The notes under the pieces were generated by a model that saw only the letters and a list, made by a program, of their open reading frames with translations, was not told the origin of the DNA and did no database searches. A stretch of 64,000 nucleotides of DNA from Nitrospirales bacterium LBB_01 (lineage in GTDB: Bacteria; Nitrospirota; Thermodesulfovibrionia; Thermodesulfovibrionales; Magnetobacteriaceae): positions 2,046,001 through 2,110,000 of the forward strand of contig CP049016.1 of assembly GCA_004376055.2 (NCBI GenBank), read 5' to 3'. A program made the translations under genes and the position numbers. Shown here one piece after another: positions 17,170-30,548 of the stretch (its first letter is position 1; every line of letters starts with the position of its first letter).

Positions 17170-18417
17170 TCACTTGTCTTTTGACTGGCTTAACTTAAGC
17201 ACCGGCTTGTAATCATCAAACTGCGGCCATATTCTTATCGGATAGTTTGGGTCCTTTTCCCAAATGCTGATTTCGGCTTTCCAATCAGGCCAGCTTGTGT
17301 TAGCATAAACTTTCATTCTCGCCCTATACTCCATCATTGACGTGGTTAGAGCAATTAGTGTTAAAACAAAGGCCGCCAGAGATGATATTTTAAGAAATGA
17401 GTTCTTATCAAATTTAACATAAGACAATATTAACACCATCAGCATAACACCGGGGGCATACGTATATCTTGCCGCTCCTGTCATATCCAGAGACGTTAGT
17501 ATAAGTGTTATTGAACAAAATATTATTCCTAATGCCAACACCTGCCTGTTTATATCTAAAATTGATTTATACATTACCCAGATTAAATATATAGCAACCG
17601 GTACAACAAATATAAGGAATATTAAATTGCTTAACATTATCTGTGTAAAAGTATAGCCAAAAATTGGGATAAGATAGTTTTCTGTAAGGTAAAGCAAAAA
17701 AATACTAATAAAATTACTGTTATTAAACCGTTGTGGCAATCCAATTGTATAGTATGAATGAGCAACTATTGCTATTTGGCAAAGTGATGAGAAAACAAGG
17801 ATTGCCGCATGAATTGTAAACTCACGGGATTTTTTTTGTAGAGCTCGCAATATATAAACCGGCGTTAAATAGCAGGAGGTAAGCCCGGCAAACCCTCCAA
17901 TTAGAAGCAGTAGGCGGTAAGCCCATACTCTAAACTTAGCTTCACCTTGAACATCGGCAATTAAAATCAAAAAAGTAGTAAGAAGCAGAAAAAACTGGGT
18001 ATGACGCGCCGTTATCCATATTTGACCAGTGGATTGTACAAAAATTATAATCAGTGCTACAACTATTTTTTTTAAGTAGGTATCAAAGAAAAATGAGCGT
18101 CCCCACAAAACAATAGCAAATGGAATCAGTTGAGCTAAAAAAGCCATTAATGCACAGACAGTAGGAGCATATCTAAGAGGCGCTATAGAAGCAAATGCCA
18201 TAGCAGTATTTGTAAAAATTTCAAAATAGCCTCTGTCTGGCTGTACTACAAAGAGAGATTTAAAGAAAGGATTCTCATAAGCATACTTAAAATAAGACAA
18301 CCCCTCCTCGTCATAAAATCTTGGAGCTATAAGAAGAATCGGCGCTCTGAGAAAAATAACTACAGCAAACACTAAGAGCGAGCAAGTGTTAAGTATATTT
18401 TCTTTTTTTGAAGTCAT
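17170..18417 (-). CDS. polytopic membrane protein, paralogue A
   Basis: A 415-residue integral membrane protein with about 9-10 hydrophobic helices. It is clearly paralogous to the neighbour at 18697-19938: both share R-A-P-I-L-L-x-A-P-R-F-Y-D-E-x-G near residue 28 and R-G-Y-F-E-I-F-T-N-T-A-M-A, and both end with W-E-K-D-P. The early acidic pair (F-Y-D-E) after the first helix recalls GT-C glycosyltransferases, but I do not recognise the family. ATG follows an AAGGTGGG site. The copies are separated by MITE-like copy 2. Function unknown. Confidence 0.75.
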   Translation of the reverse strand: MTSKKENILNTCSLLVFAVVIFLRAPILLIAPRFYDEEGLSYFKYAYENPFFKSLFVVQPDRGYFEIFTNTAMAFASIAPLRYAPTVCALMAFLAQLIPFAIVLWGRSFFFDTYLKKIVVALIIIFVQSTGQIWITARHTQFFLLLTTFLILIADVQGEAKFRVWAYRLLLLIGGFAGLTSCYLTPVYILRALQKKSREFTIHAAILVFSSLCQIAIVAHSYYTIGLPQRFNNSNFISIFLLYLTENYLIPIFGYTFTQIMLSNLIFLIFVVPVAIYLIWVMYKSILDINRQVLALGIIFCSITLILTSLDMTGAARYTYAPGVMLMVLILSYVKFDKNSFLKISSLAAFVLTLIALTTSMMEYRARMKVYANTSWPDWKAEISIWEKDPNYPIRIWPQFDDYKPVLKLSQSKDK

Positions 18418-18696: not shown

Positions 18697-19938
18697 TCAT
18701 TTTTTTGGATTAAGTTTAATTTCTGGCTTGTAAAAATCTAATTGTGGCCATATTCTTATAGGATGAGTTGGATCCTTTTCCCAAATAGCCACCTCTGTTT
18801 TCCAATTTGGCCAGTAATTTTTAACATATATAGTCATTCTGGCTCTGTACTCAAACATTGACGTTGTCAGTGAGATTACTGTAAGAGCAAAAGCAGCTAT
18901 AGATGATGCTGTAAGAAAAGACTTTCCATCAAATCTAACAAAAGAAAACACAAGAACCATCAACATCACACCTGGGGCAAACATATATCTCGCAGCTCCT
19001 GTCATATTCACTGACGTAAGCGTAAGCATTATTGAACTAAACACTATTCCCAGAACCAACAACCTTCTGTTTACATCTAAAATTGATTTATATATTAACC
19101 AGATTAGACAAACAGCAACAGGAACAATAAATATAGTGTTTTTTAACATGATCAGCATTAATCCATAGCCGAAAACGGGCTGCAGATAGTTTTCTATAAA
19201 GTAAAACGAGATAATAGTAAAAACATCTTTGTTATTAAATCGTCCATTGAATCCGCCGATTGTATAGTATGTATATATCTCAACAGTCAGCTGGCAAATT
19301 GATGCAAAAATCAATATGACAGCATGAATTGTGTGCTCACGGCACTTTTTGGTAACGGCGCGTAAAATATAAACTGGAGTCAGAAAGCACGATGTTACGC
19401 CGGCAAAACCACTAATTAAGAGCAACAGGTGGTATGCCCATTTTTTTGATTTACTTTCTCCCTCCACCTCAGAAATTAAAATTAGAAAGACGGAAAGAAG
19501 CAGGAAAAACTGTGACTGCATTACAGCTATCCATATATCGCCGGTTGATTGCACAAAAATCATTATCAGCGTTACAACTATTTTTTTTAAATAGTTATCA
19601 AAAAAAAATGACCGTCCCCATAAAACAACGGCAATGGGAATCAGTTGAGCTAAAAAAGCCATGACAGCGCAAATAGTCGGAGCATATCTAAGTGGCACTG
19701 CTGATGCCAGAGCCATAGCTGTATTTGTAAAAATTTCAAAATAACCTCTGGGCGTCTGTACCACAAGGAGAGATTTTATGAAAGAATTATCATAAGCATA
19801 TTTAAAATACCAGCCGTCCTCATCATAAAACCTTGGAGCCGTAAGAAGAATAGGCGCTCTGAGAAAAATAACCGCAGCAAGCGCCATAAGTATTGAGCTG
19901 TTTAAAATATCTGTTTTTTTTAAAACCATTTTGTACAT
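18697..19938 (-). CDS. polytopic membrane protein, paralogue B
   Basis: A 413-residue membrane protein with the same helix plan and length as the gene at 17170-18417. The shared motifs are F-Y-D-E-D-G-W-Y-F-K-Y-A-Y, L-W-G-R-S-F-F-F-D-x-Y-L-K-K-I-V-V and T-G-A-A-R-Y-x-x-A-P-G-V-M-L-M-V. Near identity over long stretches points to a recent tandem duplication. The acidic pair after helix 1 is conserved in both, which suggests a GT-C-like enzyme, but this is a guess from the fold. Function unknown. Confidence 0.75.
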   Translation of the reverse strand: MYKMVLKKTDILNSSILMALAAVIFLRAPILLTAPRFYDEDGWYFKYAYDNSFIKSLLVVQTPRGYFEIFTNTAMALASAVPLRYAPTICAVMAFLAQLIPIAVVLWGRSFFFDNYLKKIVVTLIMIFVQSTGDIWIAVMQSQFFLLLSVFLILISEVEGESKSKKWAYHLLLLISGFAGVTSCFLTPVYILRAVTKKCREHTIHAVILIFASICQLTVEIYTYYTIGGFNGRFNNKDVFTIISFYFIENYLQPVFGYGLMLIMLKNTIFIVPVAVCLIWLIYKSILDVNRRLLVLGIVFSSIMLTLTSVNMTGAARYMFAPGVMLMVLVFSFVRFDGKSFLTASSIAAFALTVISLTTSMFEYRARMTIYVKNYWPNWKTEVAIWEKDPTHPIRIWPQLDFYKPEIKLNPKK

Positions 19939-20503: not shown

Positions 20504-20683
20504 ACGACAAACCTCATATTTAATTTAATGATTATGGTTACTGTATCATATATTAGGTATTTTAGTCTTGATAAATAATCTTATTTTTTGACAAATAAAA
20601 TTCACGCCTGAACAGAGGGCTTTATAACCTATCAAAGTGACAGACAGATGCTTTTTTCCTGAAATTTGGATTACAATGTAATG

Positions 20684-22150
20684 ATGCTTTTTAATTCTCT
20701 ATCATATATTTTAGTTTTTCTGCCTTTTGTATTTTTTTCATATCTTTACCTGACTAAAAATAATCATTTCGTTTCAGCAAAAATTCTACTTCTTTTATCA
20801 TCCATATTTTTCTATGGCATGTGGAAACCCAAATATGTCTCTCTCCTTATTTTGTCTCTAATTATTAATTACGCTATAGGAACTCAGCTGAAACAAGTTA
20901 AACATAGAAAAATTTTTCTTATTGTCGGTATTGTAATTAATGTAGGTATTTTATGTTTCTTTAAATATACTTATTTTCTGATAGAAAATATGAACTATAT
21001 CGCAGGTACAAGTTTTCATGTTAGTGAATATATCCTGCCGCTTGCAATTAGTTTCTTTACATTTGAACAAATAACTTACTTATTTTATTGCTATAACTCA
21101 AATACTGTCAGTTTATTGGACTATTCGCTATTCATAACTTTTTTTCCAAAACTTATTGCTGGACCTATTCTTTATCCCGAGGAGATGATTCCCCAGTATG
21201 TCAACAAAGAAAACAAGACAATCGACGCCAGAAATATAGAGGCTGGCCTGAATCTTTTCTTTACAGGACTTTTCAAGAAGGTTGTAATAGCAGACACTTT
21301 GGCGGCAGTTGCGATAAATGGTTACGATAAAATGGGCGAATTGACAATGATAACATCGTGGGCAACCGCTTTGTCATACACCTTACAGTTGTATTACGAT
21401 TTTTCAGGCTACACAGATATGGCAAGGGGAGCCGCTTTACTTTTTAATATACATCTACCTTTTAATTTTGACTCTCCTTACAAATCAACAAACATACAGG
21501 AATTTTGGAGAACATGGCATATCACTCTGTCCAGATTTTTAAGAAAATACATATATATACCTTTAGGCGGCAATAAAATAAGCGGTAGTAAAACATATCT
21601 AAACTTAATTACGGTTTTTCTCATCGGAGGTCTTTGGCATGGCGCCGGCTGGACTTTTATCTTGTGGGGTTTATTACACGGTGTGGCAATGGCAGTAAAT
21701 AGAATGTGGCAAACAACAGAGCATAAGATGAACAAATATCTGGGGTGGTTTCTTACTTTCAATTTTGTAAATATAACATGGGTATTTTTTAGAGCTAAGG
21801 ATTTCAGTGCTGTCGTTAAAATACTTACCGGAATGTCCGGTTACTATGAAATAAGGGAGATATTAGCAACAAGAGAACTTAATCTGAATATGATTATTGC
21901 CGCACTGAAAAATTCTTTGCACAATTTCCGGCTGACCTTTGATTCTGCAGCATCTTATTACTACTACATATTTATACTTGCTGGTTCTTTAATTTTCAGC
22001 ATCTTTTTCAAAAATACAAACAGTATCTCAAAAGATAAGGTACCCTCGTATACTGATACTTTTACATTCCTTGTTCTGACAATAGTTTCAATGGTCTATG
22101 TCTTTTATGATATTAATGTATCAAAGCCGTTTCTATATTTTAATTTCTGA
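20684..22150 (+). CDS. MBOAT-family O-acyltransferase, AlgI-like
   Basis: About 488 residues with some ten membrane helices. I chose the ATG at 20684 because M-L-F-N-S-x-x-Y-I-L-V-F-L-P matches the usual AlgI start; an upstream TTG (20666) and ATG (20681) are in frame. Family marks are Y-Y-D-F-S-G-Y-T-D-M-A-R-G, F-W-R-T-W-H-I-T-L-S-R-F-L-R and the catalytic His in G-G-L-W-H-G-A-G-W-T. AlgI-type proteins pass acetyl groups across the inner membrane to a periplasmic partner that O-acetylates a polysaccharide. The following gene encodes a fitting partner. Confidence 0.88.
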   Translation: MLFNSLSYILVFLPFVFFSYLYLTKNNHFVSAKILLLLSSIFFYGMWKPKYVSLLILSLIINYAIGTQLKQVKHRKIFLIVGIVINVGILCFFKYTYFLIENMNYIAGTSFHVSEYILPLAISFFTFEQITYLFYCYNSNTVSLLDYSLFITFFPKLIAGPILYPEEMIPQYVNKENKTIDARNIEAGLNLFFTGLFKKVVIADTLAAVAINGYDKMGELTMITSWATALSYTLQLYYDFSGYTDMARGAALLFNIHLPFNFDSPYKSTNIQEFWRTWHITLSRFLRKYIYIPLGGNKISGSKTYLNLITVFLIGGLWHGAGWTFILWGLLHGVAMAVNRMWQTTEHKMNKYLGWFLTFNFVNITWVFFRAKDFSAVVKILTGMSGYYEIREILATRELNLNMIIAALKNSLHNFRLTFDSAASYYYYIFILAGSLIFSIFFKNTNSISKDKVPSYTDTFTFLVLTIVSMVYVFYDINVSKPFLYFNF

Positions 22151-22196
22151 TTGATATGACTTTATATAGTAAGAGATTTACTCAAGGAGCACGAAT

Positions 22197-23372
22197 ATGA
22201 TTAAACGAATTTCTATATGTGCGGCTTTAATTGTTATTTTGTTGGGGTTTGTAGAGTTGACAGCACGTGTTATCTTAAAACTGAATAAGGATAATAAACA
22301 GCAGTTAATCAATTGGGAGTCTTTTCACAAACCAACCGAAAACATAGCAAATCTTGACATGTATAAAAGATATAATTGGATAAATGATTTTCAAAATGAT
22401 AAGCCGTTGGAATCAAACAGTTCTGATATGTGCACTGGTCTAAAATATGAACCGTTTTATTTATGGAAATCATCCCCATGTATGACTAAATATAGAACCA
22501 CTGATGCAGATGGCAATAGAACAACAAAATATAATGTGACCACATGTGATAACAAGACAACTATTTATGTGTTTGGCAGCAGTACGATGGCAGGGGATGG
22601 GATATTACGCGATGTTGATCTGATTCCATCCATTATAGCTAAAAACCTGAATGAAAAATACAGCAGCAACCAATGCTTTGAAGTAAAAAACTTTGCCCAA
22701 AGCGGTTTCAATCAGGGGAACGAATATGTTTTGTTTATGGATATCCTATCTAAAGGGGAAATCCCTGATTATGTTATATTTTATGACGGCGCTACCGATA
22801 TTTTACAAAACGTATTGTATGGAGAACCTCATATGGGATTTGAAATGTTTAATCTGATTTCAACATGGTGGTCATCCGGCGATTACAACAGATTTGTAAC
22901 ATATCTGGCATTAAAAAAATCTGCATTTTTTAGATTGTTAAACAAAGAATATACTTTAAAAAAATATTATATACATGATAAAGACACCATAAACAAGAGA
23001 TGTGCCACCCTTGCCAATACTTACGCTGGCAGGGCAGATGTAATCAATAAACTTTCAAAACAATACAACTTCAAATTCACTTTGGCTCTTCAACCACTAT
23101 TATTTACCGTATCCAATTTATCCAGTGAAGACGCTATGCTTCTAAACAAGATAGAAAAAGAATTTCCCTATATGATAGACACATATAACACTTGTTATAA
23201 AGCTGTCAGAGACAGACTTAATGAAAAGAATGATTATTTCTTTGACTTGTCCAACTTTGATGTACACAATGAATCAGTTTATTTTGATTTTGCTCATGTC
23301 TCTCCATTAGGTAATGAGATGTTTGCAAAAGCATTAATAGATGAGATTCAGAAAAAGTTAGAAGTAAAATAG
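22197..23372 (+). CDS. SGNH-hydrolase-like periplasmic partner of the AlgI-like protein
   Basis: A 391-residue protein anchored by one N-terminal hydrophobic segment (about 4-25). The SGNH motifs are V-F-G-S-S-T-M-A-G (Ser nucleophile) and the C-terminal D-F-A-H-V-S-P-L-G-N-E, a D-x-x-H pair. The protein starts 46 bases after the AlgI-like gene. The usual division of labour is that the MBOAT protein exports acetyl and the SGNH protein transfers it to sugar (as AlgJ/AlgX or PatB do). The polysaccharide is unknown, and an esterase role is also possible. Confidence 0.72.
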   Translation: MIKRISICAALIVILLGFVELTARVILKLNKDNKQQLINWESFHKPTENIANLDMYKRYNWINDFQNDKPLESNSSDMCTGLKYEPFYLWKSSPCMTKYRTTDADGNRTTKYNVTTCDNKTTIYVFGSSTMAGDGILRDVDLIPSIIAKNLNEKYSSNQCFEVKNFAQSGFNQGNEYVLFMDILSKGEIPDYVIFYDGATDILQNVLYGEPHMGFEMFNLISTWWSSGDYNRFVTYLALKKSAFFRLLNKEYTLKKYYIHDKDTINKRCATLANTYAGRADVINKLSKQYNFKFTLALQPLLFTVSNLSSEDAMLLNKIEKEFPYMIDTYNTCYKAVRDRLNEKNDYFFDLSNFDVHNESVYFDFAHVSPLGNEMFAKALIDEIQKKLEVK

Positions 23373-23510: not shown

Positions 23511-24587
23511 ATGGCTGAAATAAGCGATAGTGTTAAGTTAATGGATACGGCTAAGAGGAATGCTCCAGAACGGGAAAGACAAACAGAAAGCAATCAATTA
23601 GTTGGGCCTGCAGGGTTAGACATAGGAACATCTAATATTGTGCTTGCAAGAATGAGAAGCGGCGCTGTGCAGACAGTTAAACAGCTCAATGCTTTTTTTG
23701 CGGTCCCACGGTCTAAGTTTACAGGCAAGGTGTTTGCTAAAAATGAAATCATGTATTTTGCAAGAAACGGGCAGTTTTATATAATCGGGAACTCCTCAGA
23801 TACGTTTGCTGCCACTTTTAATTCAACTACCCGGCGTCCCATTGAAGGGGGACTTTTAAGCCCAAAAGAGGACGAGGGAGTAAACGTTATAGCGGCTATT
23901 ATGAAGACAATGCTGCCGCCGCCTAAAAAACCCGGCGAGGTCATAGCTTTCAGTGTTCCAGGGGAGCCGGTTGATACCAGAATATCGGTGCTCTACCATG
24001 AAACTGTTATGAAGCGCACCCTTGAGGGCATGGGGTATTTTCCAATTTCGGTAAACGAGGGGTTAGCCGTGATAACCGCCGAGATGTCAAACGACAACTA
24101 CACCGGCATTGGAATAAGCATGGGGGGCGGCATGTGTAACGTTTGTCTTTCTTATATGGCTGTTCCAATACTTTCTTACAGTATTCAAAAGGGAGGCGAC
24201 TACATAGACTCAATGGTTGGCAGAACGTTGGGTGAGTCTCAGACAAAGATAAAATTGATAAAGGAAAAAGAACTCAGTCTCACACGAGAGCCAAGAAACA
24301 AGGTGGAAACCGCCCTGCAAATATTCTACGATGATCTGCTATCGCATCTAACGCAAAGTCTGGAGCAGGTGTTGGCCTCATCGGATAAAGTGCCGCGATT
24401 TGCTAAACCCGTGCCTCTTGTCATAAGCGGAGGCGGCGCTCTGGCTCAAGGATTAAAGGAACGGTTTGAAAGAGCGCTTAAGAGTGTCAGCCTGCCTATT
24501 CAGATATCATCAGTAAGGATTGCCGAGGATCCTCTTAATTCCACCGCTAAAGGAGCTCTGTATATGGCCATCTCAGAGGAATCCTGA
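23511..24587 (+). CDS. actin/Hsp70-fold ATPase, MreB/MamK-like layout
   Basis: A 358-residue protein of the actin-like ATPase superfamily. Phosphate-1 motif is G-L-D-I-G-T-S-N at residues 35-42, phosphate-2 is G-I-G-I-S-M-G-G-G at about 199-207, and the adenosine motif is L-V-I-S-G-G-G-A-L near 308. A 30-residue polar extension precedes the fold. In size and order of motifs it resembles MamK, MreB and ParM filaments, but it is not a standard MreB, and I cannot place it in a named family. The start follows AGAGGA by 8 bases. The gene is followed after 6 bases by a class A penicillin-binding protein, suggesting a role in cell-wall patterning. Confidence 0.8.
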   Translation: MAEISDSVKLMDTAKRNAPERERQTESNQLVGPAGLDIGTSNIVLARMRSGAVQTVKQLNAFFAVPRSKFTGKVFAKNEIMYFARNGQFYIIGNSSDTFAATFNSTTRRPIEGGLLSPKEDEGVNVIAAIMKTMLPPPKKPGEVIAFSVPGEPVDTRISVLYHETVMKRTLEGMGYFPISVNEGLAVITAEMSNDNYTGIGISMGGGMCNVCLSYMAVPILSYSIQKGGDYIDSMVGRTLGESQTKIKLIKEKELSLTREPRNKVETALQIFYDDLLSHLTQSLEQVLASSDKVPRFAKPVPLVISGGGALAQGLKERFERALKSVSLPIQISSVRIAEDPLNSTAKGALYMAISEES

Positions 24588-24593
24588 CACTTA

Positions 24594-26813
24594 ATGGCAG
24601 TTGCGGTTGTCGTCTTTTCAATAGATAAAACAAGGGGCAATCTGCTCCTTAAAATACTTGAAAGCGACGCCCTTAAAGCTAAGCATATCAAAACCGTATT
24701 TGACCTTGAAAGAACAGTATCAAAACACGCTCCCTCTATTATCATTTTTGATTCAAAATATCACTTTTCTAAAAACTACACAATAGTCGGCACACTCAGA
24801 AGCAAGCTGCCAAAATCGGCCATAATGGTACTTTGTGAACCATATATGGAGCATATTTTCACAGATATGGGAGTACGCTCCGATATGTGTATGGCAGATC
24901 CTCTGGATCCTGAGTTGATTTTAGCCAAAGTACGAGAGGTCTATTTTATAAAAAACAAGTCATACCTTAGACTTACCACTTTTTTAAGCATAGCTTACAA
25001 TTTGTTTACAGGTGACACTAAAAATCCCTATTTGAGTTTTGCTAAAAAAGTGCTTTTGATTTTTGCGCTTATCACCTCCCTGACAATAGGGGGCACTGGA
25101 GGTTTTATCCTGTGGAGTATTTCAGATTTGCCTAAGGTTCAACTTCTTGAACAATATACTCCGCTTGAGTCATCTCAGATATTTTCCTCCAATGGTGAGT
25201 CTCTGGCTGAGGTGTTTGTAGAAAGAAGACGCTTTGTACCGTCATACAAGATTCCAGAGCACGTGAAAAAAGCATTTATTGCCGTTGAGGATATTCGTTT
25301 TTATAAACACTTCGGCATAGATATTCAGAGGATTGTAAAGGCATTTATAGAGAATATGAGAGCTGGCACTATTGTGCAGGGTGGGAGCACTATTACTCAG
25401 CAGTTAGCTAAAATGCTGTTTCTAAAACCGGAAAAAAGTCTCTCACGTAAAGTTAAAGAGATTGCAATAGCATTTCAAATAGAGGGGCGCTACACAAAAG
25501 ACGAAATCCTGTCATTGTATCTTAACCAGGCATACTTTGGCAGCAGGACGTACGGCATAGAGGCGGCATCCTCTACTTACTTTGGTAAAAAGACGGAGGA
25601 CTTAACAGTTGCAGATGCAGCGCTTCTTGCAGCTATTCCCAAAGCCCCTTCAACGTACTCTCCGTTTAAGGAGCCACAGAGGTCTCTTTCAAGACGAAAC
25701 ACGGTTATCAGGCTGATGTACGAAAACGGACTCATCACTGAGAACAAATACAAGGAGGCTCTATCTGAACCCATTCCCAAACACGTGGAAAAAACCCGCT
25801 ACAAGGCCCCATATTTTGTGGAATACATAAAAGGAGTACTTGAGCAAAAGTATGGCGACAGCCTTTATACATCAGGACTTAAAATCTACACTACAATTGA
25901 TATGAACATGCAAAAGACAGCGGAAAAGGCTGTTGAAGACGCAATGGAGGCATTTGCTAAGCGAGGCGTCAAAGGAGTTCAGGCAGCTCTTTTGACAGTT
26001 GAAATAAAAACCGGCGAGATAAAAGCTATGGTGGGCGGCACTGATTTTTGGGAGACTCAGTTTAACAGGGCAACGCAAGCGATGAGGCAGCCCGGGTCAT
26101 CATTTAAACCGTTTGTGTATCTTGCCGCTTTCAGATATGGCTTTAAACCAGGCGATACGATAGAAGACAGAGAGGTGACGTACTTTCAAAAAAGAGGAGA
26201 GCCATGGACCCCGCACAATTATACAAGAAAGTACTACGGCACTGTAACATTAAAATCTGCCCTTGCACGGTCGTTAAATGTGGCAACAGTGTCATTGGCA
26301 AACAAGGTTGGCATGGAACGTGTGGTGGAATCAGCGCGCCTTGTGGGGATAAAAAGTGTAATACACCAGAGGCTACCCTCAGCTCTTGGCGCATCTGAGG
26401 TCAATCTGCTGGAACTGGTCTGTGCATACTGTGCATTTTCAGACGGCAACTTACATGAACCGATTTCTTACAAGCAGATAGTTAACAGATACGGTTTGGG
26501 GGTAGAGGAAATAACGCCAGTTATAAAACCAGTGCTGGATAACTCAACGCTTGAAAAGATGCATGAGGTGTTAGGGGCTGTTGTGACAGAGGGTACGGCA
26601 CAATCTGCAAAATCGCTAAACAGAGTAGTTTATGGTAAAACCGGCACAACAGATGATTATGCCGATGCATGGTTTGTTGGATTTGATGACAAGTATGCCG
26701 TAGGCGTCTGGGTTGGCAGAGACGATCACACAAGCATAGGCGATGGAGAGGCAGGGAGCAAAGCCGCTTTGCCTCTATGGATAGACTTTATGAAAAATAT
26801 AAGCTTTCAATAG
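24594..26813 (+). CDS. class A penicillin-binding protein with N-terminal receiver-like domain
   Basis: A 739-residue bifunctional peptidoglycan synthase. Residues 1-115 look like a response-regulator receiver: Asp11 and Asp53 (I-I-I-F-D-S-K) are kept, but the usual Thr/Ser (C81) and the Lys-Pro (A-D-P at 101-103) are lost. A membrane helix follows at about 152-175. The GT51 glycosyltransferase domain has E232 in A-V-E-D-I-R-F-Y-K-H. The transpeptidase has S502-x-x-K505, an S-L-N and K-T-G-T-T. The catalytic residues look intact. Ordinary PBP1A has only a short cytoplasmic tail before the helix, so this fused domain is odd. It may receive a signal or bind the actin-like partner encoded just upstream. 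Confidence 0.9.
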   Translation: MAVAVVVFSIDKTRGNLLLKILESDALKAKHIKTVFDLERTVSKHAPSIIIFDSKYHFSKNYTIVGTLRSKLPKSAIMVLCEPYMEHIFTDMGVRSDMCMADPLDPELILAKVREVYFIKNKSYLRLTTFLSIAYNLFTGDTKNPYLSFAKKVLLIFALITSLTIGGTGGFILWSISDLPKVQLLEQYTPLESSQIFSSNGESLAEVFVERRRFVPSYKIPEHVKKAFIAVEDIRFYKHFGIDIQRIVKAFIENMRAGTIVQGGSTITQQLAKMLFLKPEKSLSRKVKEIAIAFQIEGRYTKDEILSLYLNQAYFGSRTYGIEAASSTYFGKKTEDLTVADAALLAAIPKAPSTYSPFKEPQRSLSRRNTVIRLMYENGLITENKYKEALSEPIPKHVEKTRYKAPYFVEYIKGVLEQKYGDSLYTSGLKIYTTIDMNMQKTAEKAVEDAMEAFAKRGVKGVQAALLTVEIKTGEIKAMVGGTDFWETQFNRATQAMRQPGSSFKPFVYLAAFRYGFKPGDTIEDREVTYFQKRGEPWTPHNYTRKYYGTVTLKSALARSLNVATVSLANKVGMERVVESARLVGIKSVIHQRLPSALGASEVNLLELVCAYCAFSDGNLHEPISYKQIVNRYGLGVEEITPVIKPVLDNSTLEKMHEVLGAVVTEGTAQSAKSLNRVVYGKTGTTDDYADAWFVGFDDKYAVGVWVGRDDHTSIGDGEAGSKAALPLWIDFMKNISFQ

Positions 26814-27905: not shown

Positions 27906-30548
27906 TCATTGCTCCTTAACTTTTTTTGCTAAAAGTCCTTCTATTATACCCATAAGTTCTTTAAAATTAAATGGCTTAAGCAAAAATCCTGTAAAGTCAT
28001 TTCTATTTACAGTAGATGAGGCCCCATCATCCACGAAGCCGCTTAATGCTATAACCGGTATCTGCGATGTCTCAACATTTTCTCTGATTCTCTTTAACAC
28101 ATCCGTACCGGATATATCCGGAAGGTTTATGTCTGTAAGTATTACGTCTGGTTTGTGCTCTAAAGCAAGCTGTACCCCGGTAAGACCGTTCATTGCAGAA
28201 ATAAATCTCATGTTATTATAACGTGATACTATTCTCCCAAGCAGTGTTACGCTTGCCGGATTATCCTCAATGTAAAGTATTGTAAATTTGCCTTTTCCTT
28301 CTGTGTAAATACTATCATCACATACACAAGACAACTCCTTATTAAATTCATTGTCAGGAAATGTAGTTGCTATCGGAATTGTGAAATAAAATCTGCTTCC
28401 CCTACCCTCCTCACTTTCCACCCCCATTGTGCCACCCATAAGTGAAATAAGTTTTTTTGTCATAACAAGCCCAATCCCTAACCCATCATTGGCGTCGCTG
28501 CTACGGGCAGAGTTGCTAAAAGGCTGAAATAAACACTTCATATTTTCCTTAGATATACCAATACCATAGTCTGACACGCTAACTTCTAACATTTCTGCTG
28601 CTCTGCGGCATTGTATAAAAACGCTGCCGCCCTCTTTGCTGTACTTAACACCGTTGGAAATTAAATTAAGCATCACCTGTTTCAACCGCATCCAGTCTGC
28701 TCTGACCAACACCACAGTACAGCTTTCCATGTCCGATGTTATAGAGACACGACGGCTCTCTCCGATAGGCGCTGTCAAAGATATACATTCCTCAATCAGA
28801 GTTTGCAAGTTTACAGACTCAAATGAAAGCTTTACTCTGCCCGACTCTATTTTTGATAAGTCTAAAACATTATCAATCAACTCAAGCAGATGACTGCCGG
28901 CTTTCAGGATTTCCGCCGTATTTTCCAACTGGTAAGTGGTAAGAGGGTCATATGGATCAGATTCAAGAAGCTGTGCAAAACCCAATATCGCATTCATTGG
29001 TGTTCGCAGCTCATGGCTCATCAAAGAGAGAAACTCCGACTTCGCACGGTTAGCCTGTTCAGCCTCTTCTTTTGCTTTATTAAGTTCATTCTGAATGAGT
29101 TTAATTTCTGTTATGTCCGTAAGTGCGCCGTCAGCATATAACCTGCCGCCTTTTTCATAAGAGAGCATGGAGCGGCACATTAGCCAGAGTTGCCGTCCAT
29201 CTTTATTAATAGCCCTGACTTCAACCGAGAAAGGTTTGTTATTTTCAAACAGTTCGGCATAGGCGGCTTTAAGTTTGCCAACATCTTCGGGAGCAATGCA
29301 GCCAGAGTCATAAATGCTGACAGCTTTTTGAAACTCTAACGGAGTTTGTCCTAAGAGTTCCTCAACGTTTTTACTTATAAACACCACCTTACCTCTGACA
29401 TCGCATGTCCAGATAACGTCAGGAATATTGTTTACAAGAGAGCGGAATTTCTCCTCAGACTGAATGAGTGCCTCTGCCGCTATGTAATTGTATGTGATGT
29501 CTCTGCCTGTAGATATAAAATGCGTGACAGTGCCTTTAGGGTCTCTTACTGGTGACACAGTGATTTCCATATAGTAATGCTCACCGTTTATGTCTTTATT
29601 TTCAGCCACCCCCCTATAAACATCGCCCTCAATTACAGATGTCCGTAATTTAGCAAAAAACTCATCAGTAAACGGTTTTTCATTGATGTCTTTAATGTGC
29701 TTCCCTATGACGTCCTGTTCCATAATTCCCTTAAGCGAAAGATATGCCCTGTTGACAAACTCAATGCAGCCGTCTATGTTGGCTATGATAACACTGTCAG
29801 CAGTGTGCTCAACTGCAGCCGAAAGTTTTCTCAAATTATCTTCATTACTTTTTCTTGTGGTTATATCTCTGACTATACCAACAGCATTCCACGCTCCTTT
29901 TATTCTGACAGCAGAAAGAGACAGCTCAACGGGAAAGACTGTCCCGTCTTTTTTCACAGCCATGAGTTCCACTGTTTTCCCTATGGCATTGCCATGCCCT
30001 GTGGCGGCAAATTCAGGAAATGCCTTTGTATAGGATTCAAAAAAGTCATGATGAGCAATTAATTTGTGAATATCTTTATTCATTACTTCTTCTGATTTAT
30101 ATCCAAATATTTTTTCAGCTCCAGTGCTCCAAAAAGTCGTACATCCTGAATTATCTATCATGATGATAGCATCTGAGGCTGAGCTTGTTATCTTTTTAAG
30201 AGTCTCCTCACTTTCCTTTAGAGTCTCCTCGGCCTCACTTCTTTCATAGATTTCGCGCTCAAGAAGGGCATTTACTTTTGACAGGAGCTCCATATTATCC
30301 TCAAGCACCCTATTTGTCTCTTTTGAAAATGTCTCCATCTCTAATATTTTCTTTCTATGATAGACATATAGGGCTAAAAACACAGGCAGAGAAAAGGACG
30401 AAAATATGATTGCGTAAAGAATAAACCTCAGATTACTGCCGGTATCAGAGAACACATAGTAAGAAAACGTAAAAGACGCTCCAACAAAAAAACACATTGC
30501 TGCAACTGGGAAAAAAAATCTTTCTAACGTCTTATTAATATCTTCCAT
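27906..30548 (-). CDS. membrane-bound multi-PAS hybrid histidine kinase
   Basis: An 880-residue sensor. Two membrane helices (about 13-33 and 42-62) are followed by a short coiled coil, three PAS domains with PAC ends (about 115-475), a HisKA dimerisation domain with H512 in S-H-E-L-R-T-P, and an HATPase domain (N-box [10 protein letters not shown]-x-G box G-L-G-I-G-L-V). The C-terminal receiver (about 750-870) has D in V-I-L-T-D-I-N-L-P. The small outside loop suggests that sensing is by the cytosolic PAS domains, perhaps redox or oxygen. It is paired with the HD-GYP regulator directly downstream. Confidence 0.92.

Follow-up and report, generated by a model that had tools for sequence, protein, structure and literature searches.

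A pseudo-receiver domain fused to a class A penicillin-binding protein and encoded beside a Mad28-type actin in Ca. Magnetobacteriaceae

In Nitrospirales bacterium LBB_01, two adjacent genes encode a Mad28-type actin-like protein and REC-PBP, a class A penicillin-binding protein (PBP) with a receiver-like domain ahead of its membrane helix. The two genes probably form a module in which the actin filament positions the class A PBP via the pseudo-receiver acting as an adaptor, and we favor this reading with moderate confidence. The observation in the original prediction, a receiver-like domain joined to a PBP, is confirmed, but its interpretation is supported only in part. Positions refer to the window, the whole stretch of 64,000 nucleotides that was analyzed, and the features of the pair are:

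23511 to 24587, forward strand: Mad28-type (Pfam Volactin family) actin-like protein, 358 aa, the proposed filament partner
24594 to 26813, forward strand: REC-PBP (pseudo-receiver and class A PBP), 739 aa, ATG start, 6 nt past the actin stop codon
24594 to 24953, forward strand: pseudo-receiver domain, residues 1-120, from profile search, AlphaFold, Foldseek, VIA and alignment
24750 to 24752, forward strand: D53 codon of the pseudo-receiver
24975 to 25010, forward strand: juxtamembrane helix, residues 128-139, low confidence (pLDDT 46-50 in blocks 121-140 of the full-length AlphaFold model)
25026 to 25124, forward strand: membrane helix, residues 145-177 (hydrophobic at about 155-173; one such helix)
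25194 to 25718, forward strand: glycosyltransferase domain (GT51), residues 201-375, PF00912 Transgly, 222.6 bits
25995 to 26714, forward strand: transpeptidase domain, residues 468-707, PF00905, 100.8 bits

The fused protein and its N-terminal domain

The coordinates first proposed for the REC-PBP reading frame are exact, and the claim that it encodes a complete class A PBP is borne out. The protein matches the PBP1A family TIGR02074 at 620 bits, against a cut-off of 509, and contains both the Transgly and the Transpeptidase domain. The GT51 residue E232 is conserved in all 19 aligned fused ORFs, as are the transpeptidase residues S502, K505, S560 and N562. K682 is present in 18 of the 19, and the exception is presumably L149, an ORF that goes out of frame close to its C-terminus. 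Judged by its sequence, REC-PBP is thus a class A PBP of the PBP1A family, with both domains, the catalytic residues and one N-terminal membrane helix. A hydrophobic helix follows the receiver part, and therefore, from class A PBP topology, this part should lie in the cytosol and the enzyme part in the periplasm. Two congeners have the protein at 91% identity and a third at 84%, and identity across the remainder of the family is about 50-58%. The full-length AlphaFold model (13 sequences, pLDDT 71.0, pTM 0.52) is too weak for domain arrangement; in the AlphaFold domain model, the juxtamembrane helix and the last receiver helix are a single helix.

Residues 1-129 of REC-PBP have no Pfam match at E values up to 10, including Response_reg (PF00072), a family with which an ordinary receiver located 2 kb away scores 100 bits. 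A domain profile built from 23 relatives nevertheless matches solved receivers, with Spo0F as the best hit (E 4.4e-7). The AlphaFold model of the pseudo-receiver, which could have contradicted the original prediction, has the flavodoxin-like receiver fold with five beta-alpha units (34 sequences, mean pLDDT 85.0, pTM 0.77). Its matches are mostly receivers both in Foldseek (HupR receiver, E 5.9e-6) and in VIA-align (CosR, Z 17.9). The N-terminal domains of CpaE (4dn6 and 4dad) are at ranks 5 and 9 in Foldseek; CpaE chains are not among the best 50 rows of VIA-align, which carries no weight in either direction. Profile and models thus agree that the N-terminal ~140 residues are predicted to adopt the receiver (CheY-like) (beta-alpha)5 fold.

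The site residues, with the Thr/Ser site at residue 81, were placed by hand from an alignment with Spo0F and compared across 34 relatives (14 fused, 20 stand-alone). D53 is invariant in all 34. The first acidic position (residue 9) is Ser in 33 and Thr in one, the second (residue 10) is acidic in none, the Lys site holds Lys in none, and the Thr/Ser site holds T or S in six. The original description of a degenerate site, with Asp53 kept and Thr and Lys lost, is therefore correct as far as it goes, but it missed the loss of the acidic pair. Of the acidic pair, Asp, Thr/Ser and Lys that together characterize a phosphorylatable receiver, only Asp53 is kept. Other strongly kept residues are R14 (34/34), G15 (31/34), C99 (28/34) and P103 (32/34), a pattern that suggests a conserved surface. 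Because none of the 34 relatives retains the acidic pair or the Lys, a role as a phosphorylation switch appears unlikely, and a role as a binding domain appears more likely.

Distribution, gene order and origin

When the domain profile was run against 176 genomes of the order (19 of the window's family, Ca. Magnetobacteriaceae, and 157 others), 38 places scored at least 86.6 bits, and the next best, which are ordinary receivers, scored at most 46.6, a gap that is partly built in, as many members went into the profile. The pseudo-receiver belongs to a small, separate domain family. Recruitment from a nearby response regulator was considered and is ruled out, as ordinary receivers of these genomes score far lower than the family does. 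The fusion accounts for 17 of the places, in 16 of the 19 family genomes, and it was found in none of the 157 other genomes of the order by this profile. Chance or mis-assembly is ruled out as its source by this conservation and by the identities given above. The genome carrying REC-PBP is one contig of 3,273,455 bp. The remaining 21 places are stand-alone domains, 16 in the window's family and five in family f12, and the five f12 genomes concerned have no fusion. Two family genomes, G007 and G008 (92% and 98% complete), also lack it. In a sample of the phylum, the domain occurs in 16 of 395 genomes, and every fusion there is within the window's family.

The homologue survey, which had been proposed as a check and could likewise have contradicted the original prediction, also found the fusion in three Deltaproteobacteria: Meg22_1214_Bin_234, UBA6078 and Meg22_1012_Bin_121. 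Of 155 genomes in its order, UBA6078 alone has the domain, and there too the domain adjoins the actin. MamK was found above its cut-off in five of nine genomes searched and in none of these three metagenome-assembled genomes, which are drafts in which absence is not proof. The actin and REC-PBP pair thus seems separable from magnetosomes. As a separate observation, Desulfurivibrio sp. AMeS2 has one MamK-family gene above the curated cut-off and a second close by just below it, which suggests that magnetosome genes are present in this strain.

The upstream actin scores 271 bits with PF25216 (cut-off 35) and shows 51.6% identity with the Mad28-type actin of D. magnetovallimortis. In the alignment, its phosphate-2 motif reads S-x-G-G-G, with Ser for Asp, the same change that is given for Mad28 in the available part of PMC10653835. 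The window's genome has three Mad28-type actins: the window copy, a copy at 406 kb in a three-gene group discussed below, and a third at 2.43 Mb, which adjoins MamK and is 94.6% identical to the second. No MinD-like or magnetosome gene was recognized among the ORFs between 18000 and 34000 of the window. Since the window copy lacks adjoining mad29 or magnetosome genes and the other two copies are located elsewhere, with the MinD-like gene or MamK, it is filed as a Mad28 paralogue. Downstream of the third actin (L038, 9168-10415) is a gene for a receiver-GAF protein, not a stand-alone pseudo-receiver and a MinD-like gene. More distant actins of the Volactin family occur in other families of the order, as in L080 (1435-2541; also L079), where the gene is located between two GvpL/GvpF gas-vesicle genes.

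The window actin has 31 residues ahead of the actin core, whereas the magnetosome-type copies in this genome carry a long N-terminal extension. Loss of this extension is only partly useful as a mark of PBP-linked actins: these have 25-51 residues before the core and the actins of three-gene groups outside family f12 have 43-106, but those of f12 are short too (23-51). Mad28 is an actin of deep-branching magnetotactic bacteria. In the parts of the published accounts that were available, Mad28 copies other than the window actin form filaments (PMC10653835) and follow curvature (PMC12713370), Mad28 puts magnetosome chains at positive curvature in RS-1 (PMC12748827), and N-terminal truncations of Mad28 no longer make filaments (PMC12713370). 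It may be that anchoring by the PBP could compensate for the short actin N-terminus in polymerization.

A Mad28-type actin gene is directly upstream of 19 of the 20 distinct fused ORFs. The gap is 0-54 nt in the 18 cases in which the actin frame is unbroken; in G017 the actin frame is broken and overlaps the fused ORF. The exception is family genome G009 (L041), which has a fusion without an adjacent actin. Other neighbors of the pair vary between the genomes viewed. The proposed link between the PBP and the upstream actin-like gene is thus upheld as regards adjacency, although the original prediction missed both that the domain family is tied to Mad28 and that the actin is a Mad28 paralogue rather than MreB. 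Stand-alone relatives of the domain are similarly placed, with a Mad28-type actin upstream on the same strand in 27 of 29.

In a set of 80 named actin-based loci among 162 relatives, 13 have the fusion, 20 have the stand-alone domain and 47 have neither; most of the Deltaproteobacterial Mad28-type actins in this set have no pseudo-receiver nearby. As 47 of the 80 loci listed have neither form, Mad28-type actin does not need the domain. Downstream of the stand-alone domain, 19 of the 20 loci have a MinD-like gene in the same orientation, and the 13 loci with the fusion showed no such gene next to the fused ORF. To judge by gene order, the PBP takes the place of the MinD-like gene in the latter. 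Both arrangements occur together in Meg22_1012_Bin_121, in which two contigs that share 114 identical overlapping bases give the order actin, REC-PBP, actin, REC, MinD.

The window's genome also encodes a 140-aa stand-alone relative, located between a Mad28-type actin gene and a MinD-like ATPase gene in a trio that spans 2,592 nt. The available part of PMC9376291 describes Ca. Magnetomonas plexicatena LBB01 as a vibrioid magnetotactic member of the Nitrospirota with a circular genome of 3.27 Mbp and reports a region of 2.6 kb in which a hypothetical protein gene is located between mad28 and mad29. We presume that this hypothetical gene encodes the stand-alone pseudo-receiver and that the MinD-like ATPase gene of the trio is mad29. 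Stand-alone members (L037, 9140-9562, and relatives) end in a conserved tail, L-x-x-D-L-x-x-F-L-x-L, that the fusions lack. This tail could be a membrane or partner anchor that became dispensable once the membrane helix of the PBP was present. Compared with six genomes from outside its genus, the window shows identities of 22-42% in the receiver, 49-64% in the actin and 55-62% in the PBP.

A different PBP-like protein of about 930 aa is encoded about 3 kb downstream of the Mad28-type actin in 11 of the 80 loci listed, all of them Deltaproteobacterial (L101, 5818-12853; L102, L110, L113, L116, L123, L131, L137, L147, L148 and L151), and upstream of the actin in one more. It resembles a class A PBP, with GT51 scores of 109 and 116 bits in the two tested, and is located behind an oppositely directed gene for a pentapeptide-repeat protein. 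Its association with the actin is looser than that of the actin and REC-PBP pair.

The fused PBPs arose from the family's own PBP1A. All 17 that were included in the PBP tree fall inside the PBP1A branch of the window's family (SH-aLRT 95), and an unfused PBP1A paralogue, 58% identical, remains in the window's genome. The Deltaproteobacterial fusions group with G009 within this branch. In the receiver tree, the two Deltaproteobacterial fused domains that were included group instead with Deltaproteobacterial stand-alone domains (90/90). A single origin is not rejected by the PBP (p 0.496), the actin (p 0.332) or the receiver (p 0.334). These results fit a history in which PBP1A was duplicated, joined to the adaptor of a mad28 locus and then transferred to Deltaproteobacteria. 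The PBP tree took in 36 of 48 listed ORFs; it left out the fused near-copies L006, L011 and L012, two pieces of the broken L099 ORF, L194 (a piece of the G176 fusion) and the unfused L023, L027, L028, L029, L033 and L179. The actin and receiver trees comprise 58 and 39 hand-chosen rows, respectively. Three actins entered as members of trios have no stand-alone receiver beside them (the 2.43 Mb copy of the window's genome, MYR-1 contig 16 and G007) and are magnetosome-type at best.

Possible modes of action

The original prediction named a kinase, a cyclic nucleotide or a filament as the possible input to the receiver part. The filament is the only one of these with evidence, because of the gene adjacency and because the stand-alone relatives follow the same type of actin. 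Control by a kinase is disfavored by the loss of the Lys and of the acidic pair that binds Mg, and nothing was found in favor of a cyclic nucleotide. As the actin is the constant neighbor of the domain, whether alone or fused, it is simplest to regard the pseudo-receiver as an adaptor for the actin, and the near-constant adjacency of the fused PBP and the actin gene suggests that the filament directs the enzyme to its site of wall synthesis.

In such a model, the gene at 23511-24587 would produce a Mad28-type actin filament, and the pseudo-receiver would be a protein-binding adaptor without a phosphorylation switch, descended from the stand-alone adaptor encoded after Mad28 and before the MinD-like ATPase. 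In the fusion, a duplicated PBP1A would supply the membrane anchor and the catalytic domains in the periplasm, with this adaptor joined to them. From inside the cell, the filament or its membrane-bound oligomer could then capture the synthase and bias the site of peptidoglycan synthesis, most likely by cell curvature; wall addition by the pair would depend on curvature if the window paralogue senses it as Mad28 does. In the trio, the adaptor would connect the filament with the MinD-like ATPase, and in the fusion it would connect the filament with a wall synthase.

Several observations count against the proposed module. The receiver evolves faster than the actin or the PBP, which would be unusual for a tight, conserved interface. 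The fusion of G009 without an adjacent actin, the absence of a fusion from G007 and G008 despite their completeness, and the loci with neither form of the domain all weigh in the same direction. Adjacency could also be explained by co-expression alone.

It may be that the pseudo-receiver is mainly an oligomerization or activation domain, which dimerizes or binds a different cytosolic partner such as a MinD-like ATPase and thereby alters PBP activity, the actin being merely co-expressed. Receivers commonly dimerize and bind output partners, the MinD-like gene is the regular companion of the stand-alone domain, and the CpaE domains are among the best fold matches. However, in the fusion loci it is the actin gene that stays adjacent (19/20) and the MinD-like gene that is absent (none in 13), and we regard this explanation as rather unlikely. 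A smaller chance still is given to the suggestion that REC-PBP is a magnetosome part, with the fused PBP tethering the magnetosome chain to the wall or co-localizing with it via Mad28 and having a main role other than wall synthesis. The domain family is indeed found at mad28 loci, and most of the fusions occur in a family of magnetotactic bacteria. Against this, the three metagenome-assembled genomes with the pair show no MamK above the cut-off, the five f12 genomes with the stand-alone domain have no fusion, and the catalytic residues are all kept, which makes such a role improbable.

A working phosphorylation switch is very improbable. According to this explanation, a histidine kinase, for example the hybrid kinase at 27906-30548, phosphorylates D53 and so controls wall synthesis. 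The invariance of D53 would be consistent with it, as would the receiver-HD protein and hybrid kinase encoded just downstream of REC-PBP on the other strand and the CheY-like gene that follows the fusion in UBA6078. However, the kinase neighborhood is not kept in the other genomes viewed, the Thr/Ser is missing in 28 of the 34 relatives, and the acidic pair and Lys are missing in all; in general, a receiver that lacks the acidic pair has little affinity for Mg and is seldom phosphorylated.

Returning to the filament-directed synthase, a more far-reaching version can be put forward tentatively, although we consider it unlikely on balance. A wall-building system would exist beside MreB, in which a curvature-sensing Mad28-type actin binds the pseudo-receiver of the PBP directly and sets curvature or width. 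A single protein would then connect the cytoskeleton with the peptidoglycan synthase across the membrane, and the cargo of Mad28 would be exchanged between a MinD-like ATPase with magnetosomes and a PBP. If this were true, the pair would set cell shape in Ca. Magnetobacteriaceae and in some Deltaproteobacteria, the latter maybe not magnetotactic, and the positioning of magnetosomes by Mad28 would be one branch of a wider actin-adaptor system.

Relation to known systems and neighboring genes

The closest likeness is to the mad28-mad29 region of Ca. Magnetomonas plexicatena LBB01, which has the same actin family and similar gene content in the available part of PMC9376291. In the window, by contrast, the pseudo-receiver forms part of a PBP, there is no MinD-like gene and the actin is without the long N-terminal extension. 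That part of PMC9376291 contains no mention that we found of a third actin copy or of the PBP. With the present results, the gene between mad28 and mad29 gains a fold and a likely adaptor role. In addition, Mad28-type actins occur in genomes in which no MamK was found, so that a general filament for shape or positioning may be what Mad28 was at first or later became.

In well-studied bacteria, the actin MreB reaches the wall enzymes only by way of a series of membrane proteins, and class A PBPs are generally regarded as acting independently of it. The elongation machinery of MreB, RodZ, MreC/D and RodA/PBP2, in which a membrane-associated actin directs peptidoglycan synthesis (PMC12645912, available part), resembles what is proposed here. 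It differs in that it has an MreB actin and a class B PBP, whereas the pair has a Mad28-type actin and a bifunctional class A PBP, and in that here the synthase would itself contain the link, as one of its domains. No RodZ- or MreC-like genes were noticed next to REC-PBP. A class A PBP that naturally carries an actin-associated adaptor would connect filament geometry to wall synthesis in a minimal and testable way.

Two other systems contain receivers of a similar kind. CpaE/TadZ of Tad pili combines a pseudo-receiver and a MinD-like ATPase in one chain, and its N-terminal structures are high among the fold matches. The pairing is alike, but in the present loci each partner has its own gene behind that of an actin, or a PBP stands in place of the ATPase; no genes for pili were noticed among the loci inspected. 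FrzS of Myxococcus has a receiver fold without a working phosphorylation site and is thought to act by protein binding. Structures of this type are weak matches to the domain profile (2gkg, FrzS, E 0.03; 2nt4, a response regulator homolog, E 0.0015), and FrzS is not fused to a wall-synthesis enzyme. Volactin of Haloferax volcanii belongs to the same Pfam actin family and has a role in cell shape; it is archaeal, without peptidoglycan, and no receiver partner is mentioned in the available part of PMC10869688. In the openly accessible journal literature searched, no receiver-PBP fusion and no link between Mad28 and peptidoglycan is described. Actin-directed wall synthesis is thus already known; the link within a single protein and the type of actin are new to the literature searched.

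Upstream of the actin, at 20666-23372 of the window, are genes for an MBOAT O-acyltransferase and a 391-aa protein without a Pfam match. They resemble the acetyltransferase pairs that act on polysaccharide or peptidoglycan, and they are not beside the cassette in the other genomes viewed. Farther upstream, at 17170-18417 and 18697-19938, two adjacent genes encode similar membrane proteins of 415 and 413 aa and are probably a tandem duplication.
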